Of a stretch of 64,000 nt of DNA, positions 19,279 through 26,466 are shown piece after piece (position 1 is the first letter of the stretch; each line of letters starts with the position of its first letter). The stretch is from Vulcanimicrobiota bacterium. Its GTDB lineage: Bacteria > Vulcanimicrobiota > Vulcanimicrobiia > Vulcanimicrobiales > Vulcanimicrobiaceae. The notes below the pieces were generated by a model that was not told the origin of the DNA, searched no databases, and worked only from the letters and a program-made list of their open reading frames with translations. The translations under genes and the position numbers were made by a program. Location of the stretch: NCBI GenBank assembly GCA_027459645.1, contig DAIDHQ010000006.1, positions 62,001 to 126,000 on the forward strand, in the 5' to 3' direction.

Positions 19279-19827
19279 CGCCGAGCCCTTGAATTCGGCA
19301 TCGTCGTCGTTGTTTCGGCGATCCTTGCGCTCCCGGGTGCAGCGGTAGCAGATTCAGGCGCTCATGCATCTCGCTCGCCCGGTCCCGAAACGATTGCCGC
19401 TACGACGATTCGGCCAAACGACTTTCAGGTGTTCATTCGCCCGTGGCGACCCGAAACGAAAGCGTTTTGTGCGGTCCTAGAATCGGACCAGCAATGGCGC
19501 GAACTATTATTGCCGGCAGCGGTCGCCTTCGGGAATAAGCCCTTCGCACCGAAAGCAATGTGGTGGCGCACCCACGCAATGCTGCTGGTCGCGCGCTCGA
19601 CCTATTCCTCGACGGTCAACGTGTTTCGCCTTCAGTCAATCCATCGTACGCCGCACGGGCTTGTCGTAAACTACGCGTTTGCGCCTCCCCGTGAATGTGT
19701 GCGCTCTTCATCACACCGGAGCGGTGCATCCAGCGCAGTAGGCGCCTCAGTAGAAGCCGACGGCAAAAGATTAGGCAGCTGGCCGTGGGAGAGGCTTAAG
19801 CTTGGCTATCTCCTTCGCCTTGGGTGA
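19279..19827 (+). pseudogene. secreted protein frame without a usable start
   Basis: Directly after the lipoprotein stop and in the same frame comes a signal-peptide-like run (EFGIVVVVSAILALPGAAVA, 19291 onward), then a continuous frame FIRPWRPETKAFCAVLESDQ ... to a stop at 19825-19827. No ATG, GTG or TTG precedes the signal sequence in frame; the first GTG (19429) would remove it. Either the start codon has mutated, the preceding TAA is recent and this is the second half of one longer protein, or an unusual start is used. Its end overlaps higA on the other strand by 57 bp. Confidence 0.4.
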
Positions 19828-20100
19828 GTGCAGGGCGTCATAGATCTCGACTGCTGCCTGGAGATTGAGCCACGTTTGAACGCTAACACCGAGGACACGC
19901 TCCAGACGCATCGCCATCTCAGGCGTAACTGCCCTCTTCCCGTTGACAATAGCGTTTAAATTCGCGCGGCTCACGCCGAGCCGTTTTGCAAGGTCACCCT
20001 GATTCAGGTTGAGTTCTTCGTCGTCGAGATATTCTCGAATGAAATCGCCGGGGGTACTTGGCCGGCGGCGACTCGGGACCATGATTTCTCTTGCCATCAA
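19771..20100 (-). CDS. higA: HigA-family antitoxin
   Basis: A 109-residue helix-turn-helix antitoxin of the HigA/VapI type: PSTPGDFIREYLDDEELNLN, then DLAKRLGVSRANLNAIVNGK and MAMRLERVLGVSVQTWLNLQ, the characteristic HigA end. Starts 4 bp inside the toxin gene (20097-20100), so the two are translated together. HigA neutralises the HigB mRNA interferase and represses the operon, here presumably through the inverted repeat at 20421-20436. Confidence 0.9.
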   Translation of the reverse strand: MMAREIMVPSRRRPSTPGDFIREYLDDEELNLNQGDLAKRLGVSRANLNAIVNGKRAVTPEMAMRLERVLGVSVQTWLNLQAAVEIYDALHSPKAKEIAKLKPLPRPAA

Positions 20101-20405
20101 TCGCTATCTCCATGAAACTCTCCGACAACAATGCCCACCGCGCCGTGAGTCTCATCCCATCGAAATCGAAGTCGATATTGCCCGTCTATGCGAACCTGAT
20201 ACGTGCCGCGGAGCTTGCCATGGAGCTCCTTGAAGCGCCAACCTGGCGGGAAACTGAAGCAGTCTCGTAACGTAGCCGTGTTTAGCACTTTATCGATAAT
20301 GGACGCGGTCTTACCATGCAGCTTCGACGGAACAATGCGCCTTGAAGCCTTGGACGGTCGACCTTCCCAGATCGATCGCGTTTCCTCGCTGTCAAACCGG
20401 TCCAT
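20097..20405 (-). CDS. higB: HigB/RelE-type toxin
   Basis: A 102-residue ribosome-dependent RNase of the RelE/HigB fold: MDRFDSEETRSIWEGRPSKA, FSFPPGWRFKELHGKLRGTY and QYRLRFRWDETHGAV, the typical plasmid-maintenance-killer signature. ATG 20405 is preferred; TTG 20408 adds one residue. A promoter positioned to start transcription at or within 1-3 bases of the ATG suggests a leaderless message. Toxin-first order is normal for HigBA. Confidence 0.88.
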   Translation of the reverse strand: MDRFDSEETRSIWEGRPSKASRRIVPSKLHGKTASIIDKVLNTATLRDCFSFPPGWRFKELHGKLRGTYQVRIDGQYRLRFRWDETHGAVGIVVGEFHGDSD

Positions 20406-20413
20406 CAATTGAT

Positions 20414-22456: not shown

Positions 22457-22981
22457 TCACTCCTCGCGGCCGTCTCGATCGGTGTCGCGCACTCGCGCGA
22501 GGTCCTGCATCGCCTCTTCATCCTGATCGTACAATCCGTACTGTTTGCTCAACTCGATGAGATTGCGCAGATGCTGGCGCCGTTCGCGTCGGCGCGCGGC
22601 GCCGAAGGTCACTACGTCAGCGAGCGCAACGCGACGGTGACGGCCGACGCGCTCGCATGGTATCTTGCCTTCGTCCAATAGCCGCACGAGATGGGTTCTT
22701 GAAACGTCGAGGAAATCGGCGGCCTGTTGGGAGGTGAGCATCCGGTCTGCAGGTAGCACGCTGACGGCTCCGCCGCGCGCGAGCATGTGTGCGGCTATAA
22801 GGAGCACTTCGCGCAAAGGAGGCGGAAGCGGAAGGGGCTCGTCGCCCGGAATCGCGAGGTAGCCGGTAGCGCCGGGACGCGCGATGGCCTCGCCGAGGCT
22901 CCGAATCAGGGCCCGTTGGTCAGCATCGGGAGCCGCCACGACCTGGCCCGGGTCAAGGATGCTACTCATCGTATTCGCCAC
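22457..22981 (-). CDS. excisionase-type HTH protein, antitoxin-like
   Basis: A 174-residue protein with a winged-HTH excisionase/MerR-like domain at about 80-125: RMLTSQQAADFLDVSRTHLV then RLLDEGKIPCERVGRHRRVA. The layout (N-terminal 75 residues, HTH, then RERRQHLRNLIELSKQYGLY) matches antitoxins normally encoded just upstream of a PIN-domain toxin. Here no PIN gene follows; the next minus-strand gene is unrelated. It could be an orphan antitoxin or a repressor. GTG 22981 or ATG 22969 are possible starts. Confidence 0.7.
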   Translation of the reverse strand: MANTMSSILDPGQVVAAPDADQRALIRSLGEAIARPGATGYLAIPGDEPLPLPPPLREVLLIAAHMLARGGAVSVLPADRMLTSQQAADFLDVSRTHLVRLLDEGKIPCERVGRHRRVALADVVTFGAARRRERRQHLRNLIELSKQYGLYDQDEEAMQDLARVRDTDRDGREE

Positions 22982-23089
22982 GAACGCCCTCTAGGTGTCG
23001 ATTATGGCGAATATTCGCTGAGGCTATTGTTGGCGCCTTTGCACGTGGCAAAGGGGCAAGGCGTGTTGCGCGTGGTACTCACGCCCCCG

Positions 23090-24319
23090 ATGCCGCGCTC
23101 CAGCACCAAAGCCATTCCTCCGCACAAATGGGCTTTCAAAGCGCGCTTCCGGGCGGGCGCGTTCGGCTGGCGCTCGCAGCCCGCGATCGCGCGCATCGCC
23201 GAGGCGGTAAGCGAGATAAAACGCGTTGCGCGGACCGACCCGGTACTCGCCGCCGACGGAGCGGTGACATTTCTCCAACGCTTGGTGCCTGCGATCGAGC
23301 ACGTTGACGGCTCGTCCGGCTCCATCGGCTCCGCCGTCAATCGAGCGATCCGCGAGCTGACGGAATTGATAGCGGCGGCGCCGGCCGCGGCAAGCGTCCG
23401 CGACGCGTGGCTGGAGCGCCTCTGGGACGCCTTCAACGGAGACGGCTACGGTTATCTCGACGAGCTCGGCGATATCTGGGGCGATCTCTGTGCAACCGAC
23501 GAGCACGCAAATACGTGGGCGGACCGGCTCACGCAATTCGTGCGAGCGGCTTATGCTATCCCATGCGACGGCTTCCGCTACGTCAAAGGCGTTGATGCCT
23601 GTCTAAGCGCGCTCTTCAGAATCAATCGTTTCGAAGAGCTGCGCGCGATACTCGAGCTGACAGGCAAGACCTTTTGGAACTACCACCAGTGGGGATTCAA
23701 AGCGCTTGTCGCCGAGGGGAAGCGCGCCGAAGCGTTACGCTACGCTGAAAGCCATCGCGGCACCAACGACGGCTACGCTATCGATCGTGCGTGCGAAGAA
23801 CTGCTGCTCGACTCGGGACTTGCCGACGAGGCCTACCGCCGCTACGCCTTACGCACGAATCACCAGTCGACCTACCTTGCAACGTTCCGCGCAATCACCA
23901 AGAAGTATCCACACAAAGATCCGCGCGATATTCTCGCCGACCTCGTCGAGAGCACACCGGGTGAACGCGGCAAGTGGTTCGCTGCCGCCAAGAGCGCTGG
24001 CTTCTATGATGAAGCGATCGCGCTCGTGCAGGCTGCACCCGCCGACCCCAAGACGCTCGGGCGCGCAGCTCGCGACTTCGCAGAGAAACGGCCGATCTTC
24101 GCGATGGAAGCTGCGCTCGCCGCGCTGCACTGGGCAGCCAAAGGCTATGGCTATGAGATCACCGGATTAGACATCCGCGAAATCTACCGCAGCGGCCAAA
24201 CCGCCGCGGTCAACGCAGATCGCAGCAACGACTACAACGCCCGCACTCGCGCCATTCTTCAAACTGCCGGTAAGCCGTTGGTTGACGCAATCACGTTAGA
24301 CTTACCGCTGCGCAGCTGA
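23090..24319 (+). CDS. helical-repeat protein, possibly DUF6880-like
   Basis: From ATG 23090 the protein has about 409 residues; the longer open frame to 22787 runs through the divergent HTH gene and is probably not coding. It is almost all helical: WRSQPAIARIAEAVSEIKRV, AVTFLQRLVPAIEHVDGSSG, WDAFNGDGYGYLDELGDIWG, AFRAITKKYPHKDPRDILAD, and HWAAKGYGYEITGLDIREIY at the end. This pattern resembles proteins with the DUF6880/TPR-like region, but I am not certain of the family. No catalytic motif seen. Divergent from the HTH gene, which might regulate it. Confidence 0.6.
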   Translation: MPRSSTKAIPPHKWAFKARFRAGAFGWRSQPAIARIAEAVSEIKRVARTDPVLAADGAVTFLQRLVPAIEHVDGSSGSIGSAVNRAIRELTELIAAAPAAASVRDAWLERLWDAFNGDGYGYLDELGDIWGDLCATDEHANTWADRLTQFVRAAYAIPCDGFRYVKGVDACLSALFRINRFEELRAILELTGKTFWNYHQWGFKALVAEGKRAEALRYAESHRGTNDGYAIDRACEELLLDSGLADEAYRRYALRTNHQSTYLATFRAITKKYPHKDPRDILADLVESTPGERGKWFAAAKSAGFYDEAIALVQAAPADPKTLGRAARDFAEKRPIFAMEAALAALHWAAKGYGYEITGLDIREIYRSGQTAAVNADRSNDYNARTRAILQTAGKPLVDAITLDLPLRS

Positions 24320-24340
24320 CACACGCCGAATGTTCCCGGC

Positions 24341-24904
24341 TCAGCGATGCGATGCGAAGGACAGTTGTGCAGGCTCACGTTGTTTGGAAGCGGTCTCGGT
24401 TTCCGTTCGCTCTTCGAGTTTACGGCGGATGTCGCTCCCGCAGTGGCTAACGAACTCGGTCCAGTCCCGTTCACTCTTCAGCTCGTGGAAAGTCTTATCT
24501 GGAACGGTATAGACCGCAGCCTTTTTCTTCTGGTTAAGAAGGCGAAAGACGTTGCAGAGCGTTCCGACACTCTTCCCATCCCAAACCATGAGCCCAACCG
24601 TAGCAGCCTGCGCCATTGCACGATCTTTAACCGAATAGAAGTCAAAGCTGCGCTCACGCGTTTCGGCTTTAACGGCGTGTACCGCCCACTCACCAAGATT
24701 ATTGCGGCAATGACCGCCGGAACAGTAGACTTGAACGTTGCGGTATCCACGGGCCTTCAAGTACGACTGCAAAGCCTTATCTGCTCCGTTGGCGTCGCCG
24801 ATAACAATCGGGAAACCCCGTTCTATCATGTTATCAATCCGCGCGCGTACCTCATCGTTCAAGCGTGAGATGTGCCGCGAACCGCCCAAAAACACTGTCG
24901 TCAT
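24341..24904 (-). CDS. SLOG/YspA-like nucleotide-binding protein
   Basis: A 187-residue protein with a Rossmannoid SLOG look: MTTVFLGGSRHISRLNDEVR at the N-terminus (strand, then G-G-S-R), RGFPIVIGDANGADKALQSY with the conserved G-D-A-N-G-A-D loop, and NVQVYCSGGHCRNN after the next strand. This matches the DUF2493/cpYpsA-related branch thought to bind or process nucleotides such as ADP-ribose derivatives. Its ATG overlaps the stop of the PRTase gene by 4 bp. Third gene of a tight operon (Xre/ParS-like, PRTase, SLOG). Ligand unknown. Confidence 0.7.
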   Translation of the reverse strand: MTTVFLGGSRHISRLNDEVRARIDNMIERGFPIVIGDANGADKALQSYLKARGYRNVQVYCSGGHCRNNLGEWAVHAVKAETRERSFDFYSVKDRAMAQAATVGLMVWDGKSVGTLCNVFRLLNQKKKAAVYTVPDKTFHELKSERDWTEFVSHCGSDIRRKLEERTETETASKQREPAQLSFASHR

Positions 24905-25488
24905 TGATTGCTCCGCGTTCGAGTAATGGTTAGCGCCAAAACGTCTGCTACCGCGCCCTTCTCGTAGAGCGCAGCGCTTATTGCATTCATCGTAGCGCCT
25001 GACCGAAACAAGTCATCAAACAGTAAGACCCTTTTACCCCTTACCTGGGAGGCATCAACGTCGTGAAGCCCCTCCAGCAGCTTCGCCCGTTCGTCGAGGT
25101 CGTATACGTTCTTCAGCTGGGGAATGTCGCGCGTCCGTACGACGCAGTTCACGACGGGAATGTTCAACCGTTGACCGATGGCTTCCGCTAAGACAAGGAC
25201 GGGTTGAACGGCGCGGTCGGTCGACGCAGGGACTGGCACTAAGATATCAATGCCGGGCCTCCAGGCGCTCAAAAACGCCTCTACGCCGTCAACAATCTCA
25301 GGGACGACCGCTGCGTCGGAACGGTATTTGAATCGATACAACAGTTCGCCCATTTCGGAACGCGTCGTATCGAACTGCATATGTCCGAACTCATCGTAGC
25401 CCAACGGCACACTGTTAAGCGTGTGGAGATCCAAGGCATAGCCCGCCTTCCATCTGCCAATCAACTGACGCGGCTGAAAGTTCGCCAT
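24901..25488 (-). CDS. ComF-like phosphoribosyltransferase lacking the zinc ribbon
   Basis: A 195-residue type I phosphoribosyltransferase: GELLYRFKYRSDAAVVPEIV, DILVPVPASTDRAVQP, and the PRPP loop VLLFDDLFRSGATMNA at 154-169. This is the ComF/amidophosphoribosyltransferase-like layout, but the N-terminal CxxC zinc ribbon of ComF is absent. It lies 7 bp after the Xre/ParS-like gene and overlaps the SLOG gene by 4 bp. A role in making or transferring a phosphoribosyl group is inferred; whether it acts on nucleotides, RNA or protein is unknown. Confidence 0.8.
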   Translation of the reverse strand: MANFQPRQLIGRWKAGYALDLHTLNSVPLGYDEFGHMQFDTTRSEMGELLYRFKYRSDAAVVPEIVDGVEAFLSAWRPGIDILVPVPASTDRAVQPVLVLAEAIGQRLNIPVVNCVVRTRDIPQLKNVYDLDERAKLLEGLHDVDASQVRGKRVLLFDDLFRSGATMNAISAALYEKGAVADVLALTITRTRSNQ

Positions 25489-25495
25489 CTTCTTC

Positions 25496-26251
25496 CTATT
25501 GGATCGCGCTCGGATCGCACGCGATGCCGAACTGTTCTAAAATCGCAATCGCTGCCGTTCGCGCACCGTAGTCGTCCAGCTTCAGCGGGTACGGCTGCTG
25601 GGGCGAGGGACTAACGGAAATTGCTATACCTTCGACGCCGACGTCGGAGAAACTGAGGTGCGCGGGATAGTGAACGTCCTCGGGATCGTGAAATAGCCAG
25701 GCGTACTTTTGCGAACCCTTCCAGCCCGCATGCTCTCGCTCGCGTTCCTGTTTCGGCACAGAAGCGATGCCGTAGGGTACCAGTCGTGCGTTCACCGCAA
25801 CGACAAAGTCTTTGAAATTCAAATAGCCCTCCATCGGACTAGAACGCGGTCGCCGCGTACTGTCTCCAGCGTGGCTCTCGACGGCGCTCAAGACGTCGGC
25901 GTATCTGCCGTCACGCAACGCGTCAACGGGCATGGTGAAATCGAGGACCGGATTTGCTCCTCGAAACCACTGCTCGGCGTTCGTCGGGCTAAATCCAGAA
26001 TGAATCAGTGCGTAGTACGCCATGGCTGCGTGCCGAAGTCGATCGAGACGGTCTGCTGAAGGGCGATTTCGTCCCAACGACCATCGCGTGATCGTCTTGA
26101 GATCCGGGGTGTTTGTTATGCGCGCGAGTGTAGGTCGGCCGAGCGCATGTGCTAGCTCCTTGACCAGTGCAGCATCGTCGATGTGGTAGACGCGATCATG
26201 CGCTTCTTGGAGAATGCGTGTCGCCGGCGCTCTGAATGCTCTAGGCATCAT
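25496..26251 (-). CDS. Xre/MbcA/ParS-like regulator with C-terminal extension
   Basis: A 251-residue protein. Residues about 25-75 form an HTH-like segment (LVKELAHALGRPTLARITNT, LKTITRWSLGRNRPSADRLD). Residues about 95-125 read EQWFRGANPVLDFTMPVDAL RDG in essence, matching the toxin-binding domain of Xre/MbcA/ParS (DUF2384) antitoxins (W-x3-x-N-P-x-L-x3-P-x-D-L-L-x-x-G). Such antitoxins usually end there; here another 120 residues follow (YLNFKDFVVAVNARLVPYGI, AHLSFSDVGVEGIAISVSPS) of unknown fold. First gene of the operon and its probable autoregulator. Confidence 0.65.
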   Translation of the reverse strand: MMPRAFRAPATRILQEAHDRVYHIDDAALVKELAHALGRPTLARITNTPDLKTITRWSLGRNRPSADRLDRLRHAAMAYYALIHSGFSPTNAEQWFRGANPVLDFTMPVDALRDGRYADVLSAVESHAGDSTRRPRSSPMEGYLNFKDFVVAVNARLVPYGIASVPKQEREREHAGWKGSQKYAWLFHDPEDVHYPAHLSFSDVGVEGIAISVSPSPQQPYPLKLDDYGARTAAIAILEQFGIACDPSAIQ

Positions 26252-26466
26252 GATCCAAGAGTTTCTGGATAAATCTGCATGCCCCTATTTGCGCCCCCCT
26301 CGGTGCCCCCTCGGAACGAAGAGCTGCAGGTGGGCAGAGGCCCTGGGCACTGCGAACGAATGTTCGGGAAGCGGCCGGATCGGCCTCTCTCAAAAGCCGG
26401 GCGAGGATGCGGGGCCAGCGAGCCGCGCCGCACCGCAGCCCGGCCGCCGCTCGCGGAGCGGAAGCG

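Follow-up and report, generated by a model that had tools for sequence, protein, structure and literature searches.

What role does an antitoxin-type Xre/MbcA regulator play when the RES toxin that normally follows it is replaced by a phosphoribosyltransferase (PRTase) gene and a SLOG gene? The locus that raises this question lies in a window of 64 kb, by which we mean the whole stretch analyzed (bases 62001-126000 of a 254-kb contig, from a draft genome of 3.14 Mb), and an earlier note, made from the sequence alone, had proposed it as a new conflict system. Our analysis indicates that it is probably a toxin-antitoxin operon carried by a conjugative element and put together from two sources, with the PRTase as the toxin, the SLOG protein as the antitoxin and a borrowed MbcA-type protein as the repressor. 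Three intact ORFs were found, all on the minus strand and packed as tightly as first described, with a gap of 7 bp between regulator and PRTase and an overlap of 4 bp (ATGA) between PRTase and SLOG:

26251-25496, minus strand: regulator (gene 1), 251 aa
25488-24901, minus strand: PRTase (gene 2), 195 aa, ComF-like, without zinc ribbon; probable toxin
24904-24341, minus strand: SLOG protein (gene 3), 187 aa, SLOG/DprA-like and ShosA-like, without C-terminal HTH; probable antitoxin

The sequence AGGAAG overlaps the stop codon of the regulator gene just 5' of the PRTase start, suggesting that translation of these two genes is coupled.

We determined which of the three genes travel together by gathering relatives, via either the PRTase or the SLOG protein, from genomes, plasmids and proviruses. 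Leaving the window itself aside, this gave 39 distinct PRTases at E<1e-20. In every one of these loci (39/39), a SLOG gene was located directly 3' of the PRTase gene on the same strand. Since 31 of the loci had been fetched by the PRTase alone, the SLOG adjacency is not circular for them, and its occurrence in 39 other distinct loci rules out a chance cluster. An MbcA-type regulator upstream of the pair was found in none of them (0/39). The three-gene order that the earlier note suggested looking for thus holds elsewhere for genes 2 and 3, while gene 1 occurs apart from them: PRTase and SLOG constitute a conserved, self-contained module, and gene 1 stands outside it. The pair is found on chromosomes and also on plasmids and proviruses, whose hosts range from Listeria through Klebsiella to Agrobacterium. 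It is close to repA on a Klebsiella plasmid, beside parA on a Citrobacter plasmid and, in cases noted one by one, near CBASS-type genes, SIR2 and nucleotidyltransferase genes or restriction genes on other replicons.

Five further fetched loci carry only distant PRTases, without SLOG (L010 and L086-L089), and three only distant SLOGs, without PRTase (L109-L111). Some copies of the pair are broken, with both genes (L009) or the PRTase (L020 and L062) split between frames, owing either to decay or to draft-assembly error. Closer SLOG homologues without an adjacent PRTase were also seen on plasmids of Mesorhizobium, Planktothrix, Shinella and Methylobacterium (L047, L048, L049 and L050), suggesting that SLOG may have other roles; they are possibly solitary antitoxins or SLOG proteins of other function. 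When viral contigs were searched for the PRTase, single-sequence patterns gave no confirmed match and an alignment query succeeded; the same collection held no match to the regulator. The phage collection returned only distant partial matches to the PRTase and none to the SLOG protein.

The PRTase is a single-domain protein of 195 aa, with no RecQ helicase fused to it. It matched the ComF subfamily (E 1.5e-13), though with 51 bits against a curated cut-off of 234 bits, and its sequence contains no CxxC cysteine pairs and no zinc ribbon, as had been described. The PRPP-binding loop is intact, and residues L155, D158, D159 and G164 were invariant among 17 aligned sequences:

24991-25029, minus strand: PRPP-binding loop VLLFDDLFRSGAT, PRTase residues 154-166

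The same genome encodes a separate chromosomal ComF-like protein that does have a CxxC zinc ribbon (L118), and the earlier note's proviso that the PRTase might prove to be an ordinary competence ComF can be set aside. Given that ComF and DprA, relatives of both genes, are competence proteins, PRTase and SLOG could instead form a metabolic or DNA-uptake pair without any toxin-antitoxin function. The presence of that second, zinc-ribbon-bearing gene, the location of related pairs on plasmids and proviruses, some of them beside repA or parA, and the recruitment of antitoxin-type HTHs by the pair argue against this explanation, which we consider very improbable.

Among the PADLOC profiles, the closest match of the PRTase was the PRTase domain of PsyrT (3.8e-17), and the ShosT profile was also matched (7.7e-8). 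The ShosT profile turned out to be unspecific, since it matched PRTases in 14 of 14 control genomes, and this hit was therefore discarded as proof of ShosTA identity. The SLOG model (pLDDT 86.5) had ShosA (8zva) as its best PDB match by Foldseek (E 7.7e-5), followed by DprA, a likeness of fold only, with 17% identity and a TM score of 0.57; no PADLOC profile for ShosA matched the sequence. The assignment of this protein to a DUF2493-like SLOG family held as far as the SLOG/DprA-like fold, nearest to ShosA, is concerned; DUF2493 itself gave no match in Pfam, and that membership was dropped.

These results place the pair close to known systems in which a PRTase is held in check by a DprA-like protein. 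The antitoxins of shosTA and rqlHI are DprA homologues (PMC9122126). RqlH toxicity requires the PRTase domain of the protein, although this domain by itself is not sufficient, and its removal abolishes RqlI binding (PMC4670107). ShosT is described, in a passage of PMC12593503 citing Pu et al. 2025, as a phosphoribosyl transferase/pyrophosphatase that disturbs purine metabolism. Like ShosTA, the genes studied here form a two-gene pair of a PRTase and a SLOG/DprA-fold protein borne on mobile elements and proviruses, and they display the features of that class, an intact PRPP loop and an adjacent partner of DprA/SLOG fold. They differ from ShosTA proper in that the SLOG protein has 187 aa as against 308 aa for the ShosA chain, that neither partner is specifically recognized by the ShosTA sequence profiles (an unspecific match for ShosT, none for ShosA) and that an Xre/MbcA regulator gene precedes the pair. 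With PsyrTA/RqlHI they share PsyrT as the closest PADLOC relative of the PRTase and a DprA-like partner, whereas there RecQ is fused to the PRTase and here a UvrD-like helicase is encoded by a separate gene that was not found in the related loci tested. ComF belongs to the same PRTase subfamily, but our protein lacks the zinc ribbon, scores far below the cut-off of the family and is paired with SLOG. Since the best PDB match of the SLOG protein is ShosA, the antitoxin of a PRTase toxin, a compact ShosTA/RqlHI-like pair is the most likely interpretation, with the PRTase most likely acting as the toxin and SLOG as the antitoxin. Instead of the new conflict system that had been proposed, the core of the locus thus appears as a variant of a known PRTase/DprA kind of toxin-antitoxin. 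It would represent a compact and widespread module whose SLOG half is missed by PADLOC.

If the pair is self-contained, the presence of gene 1 requires an explanation. The regulator and the DNA upstream of it comprise the following parts:

25856-26251, minus strand: N-terminal part of the regulator, residues 1-132, complete MbcA/Xre-type antitoxin module
25496-25837, minus strand: C-terminal extension of the regulator, residues 139-251 plus stop codon, about 113 aa, orphan domain
26280-26309, minus strand: putative operator GGGGCA-N6-GGGGCG-N6-GGGGCA, three direct repeats whose period is exactly 12 bp; distance to the regulator start, 29-58 bp

Residues 52-128 matched M. tuberculosis MbcA (6fkg_C) in phmmer (E 6.1e-5), and the same chain was the best match of the predicted fold, with a Foldseek probability of 1.00 but an E value of 0.028, bearing out the description of gene 1 as an Xre/MbcA-type regulator. 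Two of its nearest relatives, from the same phylum, are stand-alone antitoxins, one of 131 aa and 64% identical to the regulator (L053), the other 55% identical (L054), and each has a RES gene (PF08808) directly after it. Several of the more distant relatives, on actinobacterial plasmids, also adjoin RES genes. Gene 1 is thus derived from an antitoxin lineage that normally accompanies RES toxins, as the earlier note had supposed. Compared with Xre-RES and MbcTA systems, the locus shares the MbcA-type antitoxin part and a putative 12-bp direct-repeat operator; it differs in lacking a RES toxin and in the C-terminal extension of gene 1. The only RES match in the genome lies elsewhere (L116, G000:C18) and is preceded by a small gene of its own (140 aa), suggesting that an Xre-RES-like pair probably persists elsewhere in the host.

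The earlier note had placed a nucleotide-chemistry pair in the position of the toxin, and PRTase-SLOG does occupy the RES position. The corollary, that the real antitoxin of the PRTase is gene 1, RES having been swapped for the PRTase, with SLOG as a co-toxin or cofactor, fared less well. It would account for a complete MbcA-type module 7 bp before the PRTase and for the antitoxin-then-toxin order known from Xre-RES, but several observations speak against it: 39 other PRTase-SLOG loci do without gene 1, related PRTases have antitoxins of the ShosA/RqlI type (PMC9122126, PMC4670107), and antitoxin-type HTHs are elsewhere joined to SLOG and not to the PRTase; we consider it improbable. Because the pair stands without gene 1 at all of these loci and a DprA/SLOG-like protein is the antitoxin in the validated shosTA and rqlHI systems, gene 1 is more likely to be an operon repressor than an antidote, although with its full antitoxin domain it could still bind some toxin.

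The C-terminal extension, noted earlier as an unusual stretch of some 120 residues, is real and begins just past the point where the stand-alone antitoxin L053 ends. Pfam contained no family matching it, a search of plasmids found no homologue, and the structure prediction that had been suggested for it gave no confident fold. One clear homologue was detected, a free protein of 103 aa (L052:5193-5504) with 40% identity and a DDYGAR core in the two-sequence alignment, together with one weak match; the gene for the free protein is not beside a recognized toxin gene. The module may be tripartite, SLOG neutralizing the PRTase and the C-terminal domain of gene 1 adding sensing or a second level of control by contacting the PRTase or SLOG. 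Fusion of the extension right at the end of the stand-alone antitoxin, in frame and within the same putative operon, would fit this explanation, as would a free small homologue with a conserved DDYGAR core; against it, only a single clear homologue is found, with no recognized toxin gene beside it, and the fold prediction is not confident, so that we regard it as possible but rather unlikely. We give about the same tentative credence to a related scheme in which the RES-type antitoxin serves purely as a sensor and repressor and the C-terminal domain takes up a signal (for example, a nucleotide, the PRTase or SLOG) and releases the 12-bp operators, which would make gene 1 a true third component.

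Gene 1 might also be the remnant antitoxin of a decayed Xre-RES pair, beside the PRTase operon by accident and without any role. No RES partner is present at the locus, the trio occurs at no other locus, and the fusion resembles what would arise if an antitoxin lost its stop codon and read into a downstream gene. Yet the frame of 251 aa is intact, the putative operator array has been preserved and the spacing to the PRTase is tight, and we judge such a remnant unlikely. The repeats of the putative operator had a lag-12 score of 17/21 (p=0.001 by comparison with 1000 dinucleotide shuffles), and no other such repeat triple exists within the 64-kb window. The GGGGC(A/G) unit recurs at a 12-bp period upstream of the two Xre-RES relatives L053 and L054, with one unit imperfect in L054. 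Although the upstream DNA of the Xre genes aligned poorly overall, the alignment pointed to the repeat array, and about half of 25 upstream regions of the regulator family had 12 bp as the best of 13 lags tried, alone or tied with another. The upstream regions of L034, L035, L039 and L055 also contain direct repeats of 12-bp period with other unit sequences, suggesting that the period is a feature of the family while the unit changes. For the mbcA operator of M. tuberculosis, a direct repeat of GACAAA, "separated by 12 bp", has been proposed, a wording that may denote either period or spacer (PMC7291234); the operator of P. putida Xre-RES is an imperfect inverted repeat (PMC12204516). A promoter scan found no sigma-70-type promoter upstream of the regulator, and the promoter and terminator scans were uninformative.

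Other lineages of the pair appear to have solved the problem of control in a different way. In two of them, an HTH is fused to the C terminus of SLOG: dnstrm_HI1420 ("addiction module antidote"; identified as PF21716 in L011) and HTH_37. In seven of the nine loci with a dnstrm_HI1420 fusion (L003-L007, L011 and L012), the palindrome TGTARCCNATRGGYTACA precedes the PRTase by about 20-50 bp; it was not seen in L008, where little upstream sequence is available, or in L061, where the HTH is degenerate. The HTH_37 fusion is found in L013 and L083, and the palindrome ATACAAAATTTTGTAT is present in the upstream region of L013. In a tree built from the PRTase and the SLOG core of 36 pairs (midpoint rooting only, with one long branch, L014), two changes of HTH label were needed, both forced by strongly supported branches, showing that the two fusions arose independently. 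The window grouped with the HTH-less loci L002 and L060, beside the dnstrm_HI1420-fusion clade. We infer that fusion supplied a regulator on at least two occasions, and the window appears to represent a third route, the capture in trans of a RES-type regulator together with its putative operator. The core would thus exchange its transcriptional control between lineages, as indicated by two HTH families fused to the antitoxin and by one RES-type antitoxin gene captured with its operator.

Taken together, homology and the anatomy of the locus suggest how the operon could work. The PRTase would act on PRPP or purine nucleotides and harm DNA metabolism, by analogy with ShosT and the PRTase domain of RqlH, and SLOG, translationally coupled to it through the ATGA overlap, would restrain it by binding or by handling its product. 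Gene 1, presumably a RES-type Xre/MbcA antitoxin now without its RES partner, with an orphan domain added at its C terminus and its direct-repeat operator retained, would most likely bind the 12-bp repeats and repress the whole operon, thereby doing the job of the SLOG-fused HTH of other lineages. Loss of the element, or a phage that shuts down or disturbs the host, could deplete the antitoxin and free the PRTase; toxicity, neutralization, DNA binding and any role in maintenance or against phages are predicted on these same grounds. A general question follows that can be tested, namely, whether antitoxins can be recruited to serve, on their own, as repressors of toxin-antitoxin cores of foreign origin.

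The surroundings are those of a mobile element. Upstream on the same strand are genes for CagX/VirB9-like, TrbI/VirB10-like, SLT and S26 signal peptidase proteins and a UvrD-like helicase, placing the locus within a conjugative element or next to one. The helicase had been pointed out earlier as lying just upstream. It is present and on the same strand, but 215 bp, with the repeats within them, separate it from the regulator, and a tblastn search of 15 other related loci detected no UvrD (0/15); the helicase was thus rejected as a component. The GajB (Gabija helicase) models of PADLOC match this protein as general superfamily hits.

A related element in genome G085, 92% identical over window positions 22485-24366, has lost the module. 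Its SLOG gene is reduced to 63 codons that match over roughly the first 43, and only the last codons of the PRTase persist, ending another ORF. The slot (L112:17162-18410), located before the S26 peptidase gene, is occupied by a HigBA-type pair, made up of a Gp49-type toxin gene (the Gp49 match is below the Pfam cut-off) and an HTH gene, and by an ORF of 140 aa. This replacement fits a toxin-antitoxin slot. The end of the 140-aa ORF (..TRSNQ) resembles a leftover PRTase terminus. In the window itself, a HigBA pair (HigB-like, PF05015, with an HTH_3 antitoxin) is located at 19771-20408, about 4 kb from the module. An ORF of 510 aa on the plus strand (22787-24319), with a sub-threshold match to DUF6880, adjoins the toxin-antitoxin slot and is kept in G085 at about 92% DNA identity.
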